Below are positions 59,886-64,000 of a stretch of DNA of 64,000 nucleotides, in pieces. Source of the stretch: Streptococcus oralis (GTDB lineage Bacteria; Bacillota; Bacilli; Lactobacillales; Streptococcaceae). Within the stretch, counting starts at the first letter, position 1; each line of letters opens with the position of its first letter. The stretch is taken from assembly GCF_001983955.1 (NCBI RefSeq), contig NZ_CP019562.1:62001-126000 (forward strand), read 5' to 3'. Below the pieces are notes generated by a model that was given only the letters and a program-made list of their open reading frames with translations, was not told where the DNA came from and did no database searches. A program made the position numbers and the translations under genes.

Positions 59886-60506
59886 ATGTCATTAACAACT
59901 AAAAAAATTAAAACAACTATCGCAGGAGTAGCAGCTTTGCTTGCTTTCTTTGCTCCATCACTTGCATCTGCCCAAGAAACTGTAACTTACACAGTTAAAT
60001 CAGGTGATACTCTTTCAGAAATCGCTGAGAAGTACAACACAACTGTTGAAAAATTGGCGGCAAAAAACAACATCAAAGATATTCATCTTATCTATGTTGA
60101 CCAAGTTTTGGTTATTGAAGGAACAGCTTCTACTGCAGCTCCAGCAGCAACAACGGAAGAAACAGCTCCAGTAGCTACAGAAACAGTTGAAGAAGCTCCA
60201 GCAACAACAACTTATGAAGCACCAGCTGCACCAGCAGCTCCAGCAGCAGAAAGCAACACTGCATCAGCTTCTACTGTAAGCGGTTCTGAAGCAGAAGCCA
60301 AAGAATGGATCGCTCAAAAAGAATCAGGTGGTAGCTACACAGCTACAAACGGACGTTACATCGGACGTTACCAATTGACAGATTCATACTTGAACGGTGA
60401 CTACTCAGCTGAAAACCAAGAACGTGTTGCAGATGCCTACGTTGCAGGACGTTACGGTTCATGGACAGCTGCCAAGAACTTCTGGCTTAACAACGGTTGG
60501 TATTAA
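59886..60506 (+). CDS. Secreted LysM wall protein with lysozyme-like C-terminus
   Basis: A 206-residue exported protein. Signal peptide of about 30 residues ending ASAQE; a LysM domain (about 33-77) reading VTYTVKSGDTLSEIAEKYN; an Ala/Pro/Thr/Glu linker (about 80-135); and a C-terminal transglycosylase-like domain (about 138-206) with EWIAQKESGGSYTATNGRYI then GRYQL and ending WTAAKNFWLNNGWY. The Glu of AQKESGG sits where the catalytic Glu of this fold is expected. It probably binds and trims peptidoglycan during growth. The pneumococcal homologue belongs to the VicRK (WalRK) regulon as I recall, and a WalR-like motif is seen upstream. Confidence 0.9.
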   Translation: MSLTTKKIKTTIAGVAALLAFFAPSLASAQETVTYTVKSGDTLSEIAEKYNTTVEKLAAKNNIKDIHLIYVDQVLVIEGTASTAAPAATTEETAPVATETVEEAPATTTYEAPAAPAAPAAESNTASASTVSGSEAEAKEWIAQKESGGSYTATNGRYIGRYQLTDSYLNGDYSAENQERVADAYVAGRYGSWTAAKNFWLNNGWY

Positions 60507-60512
60507 GAATAC

Positions 60513-60536
60513 AAGAGTCCTTTAGGGCTCTTTTTT
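60513..60536. terminator. Terminator shared by LysM and rgg genes
   Basis: AAGAG-CC / GG-CTCTT stem with TTTTTT. The rgg stop codon (60522-60524) lies in the loop. Confidence 0.8.
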
Positions 60537-61385
60537 GTTTACAAAGATGTTAACTTCTCGCTCTAGCTCTGTTAGTAAGTGTTCATCTTCTACTAGTTTA
60601 GCTAAGGAGAGTCCATTCTGTATCAACTGAGCATCATTAGCACAAATGCCGATACGAATATAGGAAAACGCAAGTGTATCGTACTGTTTGCTTGCTTTTG
60701 CCTCCTCTAAGAGAGTGTAGCAAAGCTGTTTGCAAAGCAACTTATCACCATTGTAAAGATAAAGAGTTGAGAGATTCAGAAGCAACATCATACGAAGCTG
60801 AAAGACAGGACTATAGTGTTTATAAACCTCTAGTCGTTCGAGAATTTTTTCGGTAATCTGATGAATATACTCCATAGGAAAAGCAAAGAGAATGGTATTA
60901 AGGACTTTGAGGTCACTCTCATACCAAGTATCTTGTTTCTCAATCTTATCCCATAATCTGTTTACAATGTTGTCAACCTTACTTGACAATTTTTCTATCC
61001 CATTTTCACGGATGTAGATAACGATTTCGAGCATATCTTGCAACTGCTGGATGGGAAAATCATGATGTGTTTTTAGATAATGTTGGCATTTTTTGAGTAA
61101 TTTACTTAAGTCGCTCGTACCACTAATAGAAGCCATTTTTAGAAAAGTCTGCATGATAGTTGATCGTTCACTTGGGTGGTAGAGATGGCAAATATATTCA
61201 AACTCTTCAAAACTCATATTAATTTGCTGGAGAAGAAATTCCATATTCTCATATTTTGGAGTTGTCTTGCCACTTTCTATTTTTGATAGGCTGGTTCTTG
61301 AGAGAACACCCCCACAGACCTCTTCTTGAGTCAATCCTTTTGACTCACGGATTTCTTTATAAACATTTCCAAAATCGTAGCGCAT
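60522..61385 (-). CDS. Rgg-family peptide-responsive regulator
   Basis: A 287-residue regulator with the usual Rgg length. ATG at 61385 follows AAGGAGGG; the ORF to 61418 adds unrelated residues. The N-terminal XRE-type HTH (about 5-65) contains KEIRESKGLTQEEVCGG then LSRTSLSKIESGKTTPKYEN. The remaining about 220 residues are helical repeats (TPR-like) that bind short peptides in RRNPP regulators. Cys and Gly in EEVCGGVLSRTSLS match known Rggs. It is divergent from a tiny hydrophobic peptide gene and a bacteriocin operon, and a 21-base direct repeat stands before each transcription unit. It is likely the receptor of that peptide. Confidence 0.88.
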   Translation of the reverse strand: MRYDFGNVYKEIRESKGLTQEEVCGGVLSRTSLSKIESGKTTPKYENMEFLLQQINMSFEEFEYICHLYHPSERSTIMQTFLKMASISGTSDLSKLLKKCQHYLKTHHDFPIQQLQDMLEIVIYIRENGIEKLSSKVDNIVNRLWDKIEKQDTWYESDLKVLNTILFAFPMEYIHQITEKILERLEVYKHYSPVFQLRMMLLLNLSTLYLYNGDKLLCKQLCYTLLEEAKASKQYDTLAFSYIRIGICANDAQLIQNGLSLAKLVEDEHLLTELEREVNIFVNKKEP

Positions 61386-61397
61386 GATTCCCTCCTT

Positions 61398-61418
61398 ATT
61401 TGTGAAAAAAGTTAACAA
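61398..61418 (-). repeat. Rgg-operator-like direct repeat, copy 1
   Basis: TTTGTGAAAAA followed by AGTTAACAA, next to the rgg ribosome site. It matches copy 2 at 20 of 21 positions, same orientation. Confidence 0.7.
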
Positions 61419-61485
61419 TAAATTGAAACTGATTAAAAATATTGTATCATAGTAATATAAAAAGTAAAAAAGAAATCTAAAATAA

Positions 61486-61506
61486 ATTTGTGAAAAAGGT
61501 TAACAA
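61486..61506 (+). repeat. Rgg-operator-like direct repeat, copy 2
   Basis: TTTGTGAAAAA followed by GGTTAACAA, ending three bases before the -35 of the peptide gene. 88 bases from copy 1. Confidence 0.7.
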
Positions 61507-61509
61507 ATT

Positions 61510-61538
61510 TTACGACAAGGTATATTGTATTTTATAAT
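61510..61538 (+). promoter_or_regulatory. Promoter of the peptide-bacteriocin operon
   Basis: TTACGA (61510-61515), 17-base spacer, TATAAT (61533-61538). The -35 is poor, as expected for a promoter that needs an activator; the direct repeat lies immediately upstream. Confidence 0.7.
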
Positions 61539-61568
61539 CAAGATGATGAAGTACTAAGGGGGTACCAA

Positions 61569-61646
61569 ATGTATAAAAAAGTATATCATCTGTTGTTATT
61601 TATATTATGGCTGGCTATTTTCTTCCCTTGGGGATGGCTCTTATAA
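61569..61646 (+). CDS. Short hydrophobic signalling peptide (SHP-like), Trp-rich
   Basis: A 25-codon ORF, too short for usual gene calling, with an excellent ribosome site AAGGGGG. The product starts MYKKVYH, continues with LLLFILWLAIFF and ends PWGWLL. A basic N-terminus, hydrophobic middle and C-terminus of about eight residues that could be the mature pheromone is the design of the SHPs read by Rgg proteins. It lies divergent from an Rgg gene, directly behind the repeat-flanked promoter, and heads the bacteriocin operon. The W-G-W end resembles only in composition the tryptophan-rich XIP of ComR systems. Mature form unknown. Confidence 0.75.
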   Translation: MYKKVYHLLLFILWLAIFFPWGWLL

Positions 61647-61682
61647 AATTTTGATTAAGTAAAAGAAAGGAAGGTGAGTCCA

Positions 61683-61706
61683 ATGGACTTCGATGTTTAC
61701 AAATGA
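61683..61706 (+). CDS. Seven-codon leader ORF before the bacteriocin
   Basis: ATG to TGA encodes MDFDVYK with a strong ribosome site GGAAGGTGAG. Its stop overlaps an ATG at 61703 (ATGA), which opens an in-frame 20-codon N-terminal extension of the bacteriocin gene. Probably a translational leader; function inferred. Confidence 0.5.
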   Translation: MDFDVYK

Positions 61707-61762
61707 ATCAATTCATCTGTTTCTGTGAAACAGTTCAAGATATAAGATGTGAGGAAAATATC

Positions 61763-62047
61763 ATGAAAAAATTAGTAAAAATTGGTGTAGCAACCGTAAT
61801 GGCATGTGGTTTGCTTGCTACTACAAATGTTTTGGCAGTATGGGTAGGTGGTGGTCAATGGAACTATGGAGTAGGTTGGACAGGAACTTTTGGATATTCT
61901 GATTATTTACATTCTACTCGCTCTCATACAGCAACTGTCCGACATGGAGGTAGAATCTCTAGGGATCGTGAAACTCCCGGGGTTTGGGCTCAAGCTTCCC
62001 TTACTAAAATTCCGCCAACAGGATTAGAATATTTCTATGGATTTTAA
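61763..62047 (+). CDS. Lactococcin-972-family bacteriocin
   Basis: A 94-residue precursor. From ATG 61763 (GAGGAAAATATC upstream) a Sec signal peptide runs to about residue 25 (KIGVATVMACGLLATTNVLA). The mature part starts VWVGGGQWNYGVGW and has family marks SDYLHSTRSHTATVRHGG, ETPGVWAQASLTK and the aromatic end LEYFYGF. Lactococcin 972 is an unmodified, dimeric bacteriocin that binds lipid II and stops septum formation. An alternative start at 61703, coupled to the leader ORF, would add 20 residues (MNQFICFCETVQ onward) before the signal; it fits secretion less well. The gene downstream encodes the family's membrane partner. Confidence 0.9.
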   Translation: MKKLVKIGVATVMACGLLATTNVLAVWVGGGQWNYGVGWTGTFGYSDYLHSTRSHTATVRHGGRISRDRETPGVWAQASLTKIPPTGLEYFYGF

Positions 62048-62053
62048 GTGAAA

Positions 62054-62086
62054 TTTTCCCTCTCCTGTTAGGAGAGGGAGAACTTT
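62054..62086 (+). terminator. Hairpin between bacteriocin and immunity gene
   Basis: A 13-pair stem (62054-62066 with 62070-62082, core CCCTCTCCT/AGGAGAGGG) with a 3-base loop and only a weak T run (CTTTATT). Probably a partial terminator or mRNA-stabilising element giving more bacteriocin than membrane protein. Confidence 0.75.
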
Positions 62087-62101
62087 ATTGGAGGTATCTT
62101 T

Positions 62102-64000
62102 ATGAAAAAAATCAGTAATTTCTGTATGTTACTCCTGCTTCTCTGTACTACTTTTTTTGTTTTTAATGTAAACTACACACGAGAAGTGGTTCGGATTCAG
62201 GAAATGGGAAAGACAGCGAGTTCTTTGGATGTATACTTGAAAGATGTCAATGAACCTGCAGAATCTGTTCTTCGATTTTTTGAGGATGTATCAAAGGAGT
62301 ACAAAGTCTCCATCATCAAAACAGACAGTGGTGATGAGGTGATCAAGTCTGGTGTTTTTGATAAAGATACCTTCCCCTACCAAGAGTTTGGGATTTCTTC
62401 CCTTGGTTTTACCACAGATGGTGAAGGAGTCTACAGTAATAAAGAAATTTCCAATAAACTTGGTACGATTCCGACCTTTCTAAAAGCCAAGCCTATTCAG
62501 CTTATGACTTTTCAAGCCTACATCAAGGATACATCTCGTAGTTTAAATGGTCGCTACACGATTAGTTCGGCTCAAGAGATGGATAGAGATCAGATTTTAC
62601 AGAAGTGGAGTGATTTTTTCAAGACTGACCAGGCTACCTTGCTAGAGCCAAACTATAAAAGTGCAGTGGAAGTCTTAAATCGAGATTTGCTCTTATCTGC
62701 TATTATTTTTGTCTTGGCTATTTTGCTTCTTGTCTTAGTAACAGTGTATCAGCCGATGATGGAGATGAAAAGAGTTGGGGTACAAAAATTACTTGGTTTT
62801 CAAGATCGGGCTGTTTTAGCTGATGTTGTGAAAGGCAACCTCTACCTCCTCCTAGGTGGGGCGCTTGTGATCAATCTAGGAGTGTGTTTCTTGCTTGATT
62901 ATAAGCCGAAAGATTTGTTCCCTATGCTGTGGTTGTCTCATTTTTTGCTTTTGCAGCTTTATCTCTTTATCAGTTGGTTGACTTATCTCTTAATCCAAAA
63001 AATGACAATCAGCTCTCTGCTGAAAGGTTTTTCATCTTTCAAATTTGGTTTACTCTTTAATTATTTGATGAAAATTGGAACCACCATTTTACTGACAGTC
63101 TTGCTAGTTGGGGTGGGGAAAAGTTTGGAGCAAGAAAACAAAGAGTTGGATTACCAGAAACAGTGGATCAGTCAAGGAAATTATCTGACCTTAGAAACTT
63201 TCCAACTCAATGATAACCTGTGGCAAGAGCAGTTGGCAGGCTCAGGGCAAGCAGTGGATTATTTCTATCGATTTTATCTGGATTTGGTAGAAAAAACGCA
63301 GGCGGGCTATGTGCAAAGTAGCAGTCTTCCTGTAAAAAATTTTGTCAAATCAGAACAGATTCAGCAATATCAGTTAACAGATACGGTGGATGTGTACTAT
63401 GCTAATCGCAATTTTCTAAAGAGCAAGGGATTCAAGTTACCCGATACCGGCACTAAAAAAGTTATTTTGATGCCAGCAAGTACGAAAGGTGAAGAAGAGA
63501 AAAACCAGCTCTTGGGGAAGTTGATTACCTATCAATCAATGAAGTATGAAGAGCAGCAAAAACGAAGGATAGAGGAGGTGGATGTCGAGATTGCCTATTA
63601 TGAAGGAGATTGGTCATTTTTCCCTTATAACGAGAAGCGAAAGGAAAATCTCTACAATCCAATTATTAGCTTGGTCAATGATTCTGATATGATGTGGGAT
63701 GAAAAAGCTTCCCTGTCAACAACAGGTTTAAATAATCCCATTAAAATCGAAAATACAGCTCAACATCAAAAAGAGGTGACAGCGTTAGTTGAGAAATTAT
63801 CAGATGGGAATTATTTAAAATTTTCATCTATTCAAGCCATTCAACAAGAGAAAGTAGATTCTTATCGAGATGCTGTTCGGAATTTCAACATACTCTTTGC
63901 TTTGGTTGGTCTTCTTAGTATGATGATTTCCTACTTCTTACTAGTAACAACTTTCTTATTGAAGCGAACAGATATTATTACCAAGAAGTTTATGGGGTGG
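62102..64000 (+). CDS. Bacteriocin-associated integral membrane protein (DUF1430), 3' end outside window
   Basis: The frame is open for 633 codons to the window end. A signal-anchor (NFCMLLLLLCTTFFVFNV), an outside domain, then membrane spans at about 200-225 (LLSAIIFVLAILLLVLVTVY), 240-262, 280-300 and 322-342, a second outside domain, and a further span near 600-620 (LFALVGLLSMMISYFLLVTT). It repeats the FtsX-like plan of ABC permeases. This is the partner found next to lactococcin-972-type genes, usually followed by an ABC ATPase; together they are thought to give immunity. The TGGAGG ribosome site is five bases past the intergenic hairpin. Confidence 0.85.
   Translation, partial: MKKISNFCMLLLLLCTTFFVFNVNYTREVVRIQEMGKTASSLDVYLKDVNEPAESVLRFFEDVSKEYKVSIIKTDSGDEVIKSGVFDKDTFPYQEFGISSLGFTTDGEGVYSNKEISNKLGTIPTFLKAKPIQLMTFQAYIKDTSRSLNGRYTISSAQEMDRDQILQKWSDFFKTDQATLLEPNYKSAVEVLNRDLLLSAIIFVLAILLLVLVTVYQPMMEMKRVGVQKLLGFQDRAVLADVVKGNLYLLLGGALVINLGVCFLLDYKPKDLFPMLWLSHFLLLQLYLFISWLTYLLIQKMTISSLLKGFSSFKFGLLFNYLMKIGTTILLTVLLVGVGKSLEQENKELDYQKQWISQGNYLTLETFQLNDNLWQEQLAGSGQAVDYFYRFYLDLVEKTQAGYVQSSSLPVKNFVKSEQIQQYQLTDTVDVYYANRNFLKSKGFKLPDTGTKKVILMPASTKGEEEKNQLLGKLITYQSMKYEEQQKRRIEEVDVEIAYYEGDWSFFPYNEKRKENLYNPIISLVNDSDMMWDEKASLSTTGLNNPIKIENTAQHQKEVTALVEKLSDGNYLKFSSIQAIQQEKVDSYRDAVRNFNILFALVGLLSMMISYFLLVTTFLLKRTDIITKKFMGW

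Follow-up and report, generated by a model that had tools for sequence, protein, structure and literature searches.

A predicted RtgR/RtgS-type Rgg/WxW peptide switch in front of a streptococcin-A-type bacteriocin operon of Streptococcus oralis

Results

Organization of the locus

A 64,000-nucleotide stretch of Streptococcus oralis DNA (contig NZ_CP019562.1, positions 62,001 to 126,000; hereafter the window) was analyzed for a gene cluster at its end, in which an rgg regulator gene on the minus strand is divergent from a short open reading frame (ORF) on the plus strand, followed by a bacteriocin gene and a gene encoding a TIGR01654 membrane protein (Table 1). A sequence-only reading of this DNA had described an Rgg gene divergent from a 25-codon ORF with the ribosome site AAGGGGG, a basic, then hydrophobic peptide ending in PWGWLL and, behind it, a lactococcin-972-like gene with a membrane partner. 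All of these elements were recovered. The ORF ends in FFPWGWLL, the bacteriocin reached 74.4 bits with PF09683 (cut-off 22) and 77.2 bits with TIGR01653 (cut-off 32.1), and the membrane protein 616.6 bits with TIGR01654. Together with an ATP-binding cassette (ABC) ATPase, assigned by reading of the sequence, these proteins make up the gene set of the lactococcin 972 family. The bacteriocin probably starts at ATG 61763, which yields a protein with a Sec-like signal as judged by eye; a start at 61703 was set aside in its favor.

Table 1 Features of the rgg-bacteriocin locus; positions refer to the window unless another locus is named
Feature	Position	Strand	Remarks
rgg, RtgR-like (group A) Rgg/RRNPP regulator, 287 residues	60522..61385	-	HTH_3, fold matches, RtgR-type relative
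rgg start codon ATG, behind TAAGGAGGG	61385	-	
Box 1, ATTTGTGAAAAAAGTTAACAA	61398..61418	+	5' of possible P1, inside likely rgg 5' untranslated region
Possible promoter P1, TTGAAA-16-TATCAT		+	-10 TATCAT at 61445
Likely rgg promoter, TTTACT-16-TACAAT	61441..61468	-	TG before second hexamer; overlaps P1
Box 2, inverted repeat AAATTTGTGAA-N5-TTAACAAATTT	61484..61510	+	Candidate regulator operator
Promoter P2, TTTACG-18-TATAAT	61509..61538	+	-10 at 61533, expected start ~61545
Peptide ribosome site AAGGGGG	61556..61562	+	Six bases 5' of ATG
Putative pheromone precursor MYKKVYHLLLFILWLAIFFPWGWLL, 25 codons	61569..61646	+	ORF, WxW near C terminus
Conserved leader GAAAGGAAGGTGAGTCCAATGGACT (61665-61689) with 7-codon mini-ORF (61683-61706)	61665..61706	+	
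scaA-type lactococcin-972 family bacteriocin, 94 residues	61763..62047	+	PF09683, TIGR01653
Terminator-like hairpin, 13 pairs	62054..62082	+	Gap between bacteriocin and membrane-protein genes
scaB-type bacteriocin-associated membrane protein	62102..64000	+	TIGR01654; runs past window end, ends in L006
scaC-type ABC ATPase	L006:5208-5837		Outside window; read from sequence

The regulator and the peptide

The regulator combines an N-terminal helix-turn-helix (HTH) domain (HTH_3, 39.6 bits, above the cut-off) with an RRNPP repeat domain, as is characteristic of the Rgg family; Rgg_C alone scored 21.6 bits, below its cut-off of 27. An AlphaFold model (pLDDT 80.4, pTM 0.54) matched Listeria 4ryk, ComR, Rgg2/Rgg3, Rgg144, PrgX and PlcR in the PDB with TM-scores of about 0.4-0.6. 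In a genus-wide search covering one genome per species, 162 of 284 genomes contained a match at E <= 1e-10, many of them distant. The named scan yielded 26 loci, of which three are C-terminal fragments; the records bear the names S. oralis, S. mitis, S. pseudopneumoniae, S. infantis and others. The idea that the genome carries the circuit twice was rejected, since the next best matches there are only 21-26% identical.

The peptide MYKKVYHLLLFILWLAIFFPWGWLL contains no Asp or Glu among its 25 residues and carries a WxW motif near the C terminus. Divergent, basic and then hydrophobic, it has the properties of peptides of Rgg/WxW pairs; it differs from SHP peptides, which have a conserved Asp/Glu, and from ComS, the gene of which is not divergent from comR. 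Chance occurrence was estimated by shuffling the rgg-bacteriocin gap 20,000 times with a first-order Markov model: an ATG-initiated ORF of 20-40 codons with W.W in the last seven residues arose in 34 shuffles, and in four when a ribosome site was also demanded. Furthermore, the same genome encodes an EcsB-family protein, which we take to be PptB-like, and four SBP_bac_5 matches; these are candidate transporter families for a PptAB/Ami route. The active pheromone is likely formed by the last 8-12 residues of the precursor, by analogy with RtgS, for which synthetic C8, C10 and C12 peptides induce at a nanomolar half-maximal effective concentration (EC50) in CDM+ (PMC7018657). Three RtgS pheromone types are distinguished by Pro, Ser or Leu as penultimate residue (PMC7018657); the window peptide has Leu.

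Co-conservation of peptide, regulator and bacteriocin

Eighty loci (numbered with the prefix L, genomes with G), the best of the genus-wide matches listed, were fetched. Together with the window, 65 loci encode an Rgg of at least 64% identity; a broken copy in G209 with three stops (75% over 193 residues) and many matches of <=47% were left out. Eight loci, the window included, form group A (96-100% identity to the window Rgg), the remaining 57 group B. An scaA gene lies within 500 bp of rgg in 10 of the 65 loci including the window, and all ten (five of each group) have an intact FPWxW peptide; loss of the peptide in a relative keeping rgg and the adjacent bacteriocin gene was thus not seen. 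Among the other 55 loci the peptide is present in 11 and absent in 44, in two of which a PlcR-like gene comes first and scaA follows at a greater distance. As counted, peptide and scaA are strongly associated (Fisher p 2e-6, calculated for related loci with kinship ignored). A further pheromone candidate, a 37-residue ORF (MFKNKELFRV...) that takes the place of the peptide in several group B loci, was rejected, because in L112 and L114 it occurs apart from Rgg, in front of the same gene of 195-196 codons.

The region upstream of scaA-like genes was surveyed in 28 genomes. Five carry a group A Rgg with FFPWGW and five a group B Rgg with FPWxW directly upstream; three more have the latter arrangement with an intervening gene, one a group B Rgg about 4.6 kb off and one an Rgg fragment. 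A PlcR-like RNPP regulator was found in five (the genome of L020 among them) and, in four, a distant Rgg (34-36%) accompanied by a different short ORF, one of these ORFs being shorter than the rest. The last four have no such Rgg, one of these having another small HTH protein. Therefore, one bacteriocin family sits behind several peptide-regulator types.

Several of these arrangements deserve description. A related bacteriocin lies behind a PlcR-like RNPP regulator in L020 (11081-12650), L104 and L121, and a 47-residue hydrophobic ORF between the two genes in L104 and L121 might be a signal precursor. The distant rgg genes of L167-L170 are each divergent from a short ORF. The C-terminal ends of these ORFs vary, e.g. 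GGGWWSWPLPIINK and GGGWVIIWPVINK, and the bacteriocins behind them are 60-62% identical. In L143, L130, L138 and L146, Rggs of 45-51% identity are accompanied by short Trp-containing ORFs before small secreted-looking proteins. That of L143 alone was confirmed as a lactococcin-972 family member by both Pfam and NCBIfam; the other three are unconfirmed, with a TIGR01654 partner below the cut-off in L130 and L138 and none in L146. In L090 (genome G245) a group A-type peptide remnant, YKKVYHLLLLMAIFFPWG, is located 5' of scaA, with remnant and scaA at +3744 and +4578 from the rgg start, and the adjacent Rgg is of group B with FPWKWLI.

Promoters and operator-like boxes

A poor -35 with a repeat right upstream had also been noted for the promoter, and the box 2 repeat does extend into the -35 hexamer of P2. 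A 21-nucleotide repeat occurs twice with its copies 88 nucleotides apart, once as box 1 and once within box 2; both fit TTTGTGAAAAA[AG]GTTAACAA. The start of the box core is 43 nucleotides from the -10 hexamer at both P1 and P2, which agrees with the report of two promoters for rtgS1. Judged by sequence, the inverted repeat typical of Rgg/WxW promoters is present.

With up to two mismatches the box core occurs twice in the window, and at least two matches were obtained in 16 of 100 shuffles; the case for the box consequently rests on its place and conservation. In the whole genome three matches with up to one mismatch were found (reversed control: one), boxes 1 and 2 being the only exact ones. 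The third lies inside a lipoprotein-like ORF and was rejected as a chance match rather than a further regulon site. The core of box 1 (up to two substitutions) is present in 63 of the 65 loci, including loci without the peptide.

Receptor and signal diverge together

For comparison of the domains, 8 group A and 56 group B regulators were used, L118 being left out as short. Mean identity between the groups was 92.0% in the HTH domain (residues 1-66) and 59.4% in the sensor domain (67-287); within groups A and B the sensor domains are 97.3% and 85.9% identical. Nucleotide identity of the window with L078 is 98-99% just below the gene, 60-75% across the sensor region and 87-92% in the HTH region and promoter. 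In trees of the sensor domain, group A formed one clade at the protein level (support 99) and required one change at the DNA level (support 100). In the HTH protein tree group A was scattered, with 6 changes as compared to a mean of 5.8 for shuffled labels, 66 columns resolving little; in the HTH DNA tree it required three changes, two forced by well-supported branches (shuffled mean 7.6). Protein trees were built without paralogues from the same genome.

The peptides follow the same division. All five intact group A peptides read FFPWGW[LF]L and represent three alleles, which vary mainly in the leader and each keep FFPWGW; all 16 group B peptides read FPW[NKQRG]W[PL][IM]. On the regulator tree a single change of peptide type suffices, and it goes along with the change of sensor type, in what looks like pherotype exchange by recombination.

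The leader element and the bacteriocin operon

Between peptide and bacteriocin, GAAAGGAAGGTGAGTCCAATGGACT opens a 7-codon mini-ORF, MDFDVYK. When one mismatch is allowed, the leader core GGNGAGTCCAATGGACT occurs 31 times, in 28 of 284 genomes (reversed control: 14 places, 13 genomes). By coordinates it adjoins an Rgg or scaA match in 25 of the 28, the exceptions being G022, G160 and G283, and it is also retained where the regulator is PlcR-like. Leader RNA did not fold better than shuffled sequences (z -0.43), and an Rfam scan gave a single match, below the gathering score. At the opening of the mini-ORF, a hairpin comprising ribosome site and ATG, GGTGAGTCCAATGGACT, is kept across loci with differing flanks. 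In genome G245 the leader motif occurs four times when one mismatch is allowed. Additionally, the hairpin at 62054-62082 could lower expression of the presumed immunity genes relative to the bacteriocin.

Beside rgg, the gene of a LysM protein (59886-60506; NCBIfam aggregation-promoting factor match, 243 bits) and sdhAB mark where the variable site ends on one side, as they do in the majority of the group A and B loci fetched. The sdh genes of the window are 95.4-96.1% identical to loci recorded as S. oralis DD15 and S. pseudopneumoniae 843_SPSE, 91.6-92.9% to S. oralis BCC10 and DD24, and 86.7% to S. mitis SK667, names that do not agree among themselves. The ORFs past the window end presumably encode the ABC ATPase, an amino-acid-binding protein and arg gene products, as judged from their sequences.

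Apparent loss of peptide and bacteriocin

In L069, L071, L078, L080, L082 and L085 the peptide leader runs directly into the membrane-protein gene. The junction lies at GGNGGTA; its 5' side resembles the window peptide leader, its 3' side the scaB leader. Peptide and bacteriocin were apparently lost in a single event in these six relatives, which retain the presumed immunity gene, and two similar ribosome sites appear to have recombined (a deletion from ribosome site to ribosome site, with the junction near AAGGGGG). The P2 -10 hexamer is kept in L085, and a 22-bp stretch including it is missing from the other five; box 2 is recognizable within two substitutions in L069 and L085 only. Incomplete sca loci were described in S. 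mitis isolates, with a defensive role proposed for them; the main text of that report names RpoD sites for streptococcin promoters and does not mention Rgg (PMC11921387).

Comparison with known systems

The closest likeness is to RtgR/RtgS of Streptococcus pneumoniae. Both systems pair an Rgg with a divergently encoded short WGW peptide that is basic-hydrophobic and lacks the Asp/Glu of SHP peptides, and in both an inverted repeat occurs in two promoters, which are nearly identical for RtgR/RtgS (PMC7018657). Streptococcus sp. LQJ-218 (L020/L093) provides a direct comparison: its Rgg is divergent from a peptide ending in AIIFPWGWPI, tabulated as RtgS type A (PMC13361665), and the locus continues with a peptidase-type ABC transporter and double-glycine-like peptides. 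The window Rgg is 70% identical to this RtgR overall, with 97% identity in the HTH domain but only about 60% in the sensor domain, and the window peptide ends in FFPWGWLL, whereas RtgS ends in IFPWGWPI. Cargo and site differ as well: the window carries a lactococcin-972 operon of bacteriocin, membrane protein and ABC ATPase instead of RtgAB and double-glycine peptides, and is located between lysM and arg genes, while the rtg locus of L020 lies beyond argH. The same genome (G219) encodes a bacteriocin 86% identical to that of the window.

The order of bacteriocin, membrane protein and ABC genes resembles streptococcins A-E, described as bacteriocin, immunity and transporter genes (PMC6120550), and SP_0109 of oral streptococci (PMC6722419), which we infer to be streptococcin A. 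The sequence-only reading knew of no described Rgg-controlled lactococcin 972 system with a Trp-rich signal. This was too strong, because PWGW is already part of RtgS, a group of Rgg/WxW pairs was proposed in 2020, and ScbR/ScbS with scbABC (streptococcin B) has been published: a six-residue double-Trp peptide activates the scb promoters in an scbR-dependent manner (PMC11796350, 2024). There, too, an Rgg/ComR-family regulator and a Trp-rich peptide precede a lactococcin-972 operon, and some strains retain only the presumed immunity genes, as do some relatives of the window. However, ScbR/ScbS is of the ComR type, with a GDWWHG peptide, a ComR box, the peptide 3' of the regulator, and ComE control of scb in most pneumococci (PMC11796350). 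Rgg1518/SHP1518 likewise combines a WxW pheromone with a 7-codon mini-ORF before the operon, rio83, which occupies the corresponding place and has a negative effect, but its peptide, mini-ORF sequence and cargo differ from those of the window (PMC9426450). No description of Rgg/WxW control of streptococcin A or of the FFPWGWLL pherotype was found among the matches listed from the open-licence literature. What is new here is the pairing of Rgg/WxW with a streptococcin-A-type operon; both parts were already known.

Discussion

With this gene order, two equally spaced boxes, co-conservation of peptide and bacteriocin and paired divergence of receptor and peptide, we predict with good confidence that an RtgR/RtgS-type Rgg/WxW quorum-sensing switch drives the streptococcin-A-type operon. 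We infer that the peptide activates the operon; activation is favored because data from RtgS deletion, RtgR deletion and synthetic peptides exist for a close relative, in which RtgR and RtgS are both required for activation and PptAB and Ami are needed (PMC7018657). The 25-residue precursor would be exported and trimmed, by PptAB in the known system, and a C-terminal peptide of about AIFFPWGWLL would be re-imported by Ami and bind the sensor domain of Rgg. The complex would then bind the TTTGTGAAAAAGGTTAACAAA box beside the weak -35 and activate P2, perhaps also P1. The resulting transcript would encode the peptide itself, providing positive feedback, as well as the Sec-secreted lactococcin-972-type bacteriocin and its presumed immunity and transport partners.

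Several observations weigh against this prediction. The receptor often exists without the peptide, since 44 of the 65 related loci have no intact peptide beside the gene. A kinship-aware test gave three or six supported pairs, depending on direction, and none opposite; the sign test was non-significant. Box 1 conservation may reflect either an operator or the rgg promoter, because the region of the likely rgg promoter, on the opposite strand, overlaps with box 1. L076, L086 and L136 carry the peptide and no box 2 match within two substitutions; L098, L099, L109 and L110 have box 2 and no peptide. Exchange of the HTH domain is only partial, because the HTH DNA tree groups A better than shuffled labels do. 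Confidence in the Rgg model is moderate, and the TM-scores of its PDB matches are about 0.4-0.6.

Three other explanations were weighed. Rgg might act as a repressor, or as a dual regulator like Rgg3 of S. pyogenes, with the peptide relieving repression; this would also fit the positions of the boxes, box 2 being in contact with the -35 and box 1 inside the likely rgg 5' untranslated region. We regard this as improbable: the P2 -35 is weak, and the HTH domain with 97% identity (L093) belongs to RtgR, which is needed for activation (PMC7018657). Slightly less probable still is a silent or decaying relic with a regulator no longer working. Many relatives are incomplete, as are the sca loci of some S. 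mitis isolates (PMC11921387), but in the window every gene and promoter element is open and intact, and five group A loci, the window included, retain both peptide and scaA. It is very unlikely that the peptide, hydrophobic over most of its length and missing beside 44 of 65 related Rggs, serves the operon as a leader or as a small membrane peptide while Rgg answers something else, as seven group B loci, RtgA-type L093 included, have the peptide and, within the stretch fetched behind it, no scaA, the peptide type follows the sensor clade, and a same-shaped peptide is a proven pheromone (PMC7018657).

Beyond the activating switch, a wider reading is put forward tentatively, its four parts taken jointly: the lysM-mnmA site of mitis-group streptococci may hold a pherotype cassette that can be swapped. 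Its DNA-binding domain and operator would be shared, sensor and pheromone would be exchanged together, and the bacteriocin cargo would be exchangeable. Deletion between similar ribosome sites would remove pheromone and bacteriocin and leave receptor and immunity gene in place, and the conserved hairpin and mini-ORF would add translational control, as rio83 may in Rgg1518. Neighbors would then share one operator code yet answer different peptides.

The locus offers a case of receptor and signal diverging together above a conserved DNA-binding domain. It also supplies a candidate switch for a streptococcin-A-type operon, the control of streptococcins A, C and D having been called unclear in 2024 (PMC11796350). 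Our findings suggest that control of lactococcin-972 operons by Rgg and Trp-containing peptides is found repeatedly among streptococci, and that a short deletion taking both signal and weapon can give rise to immunity-only loci. Should the peptides prove as specific as their sequences suggest, oral streptococci with this operator in common would not share a language.

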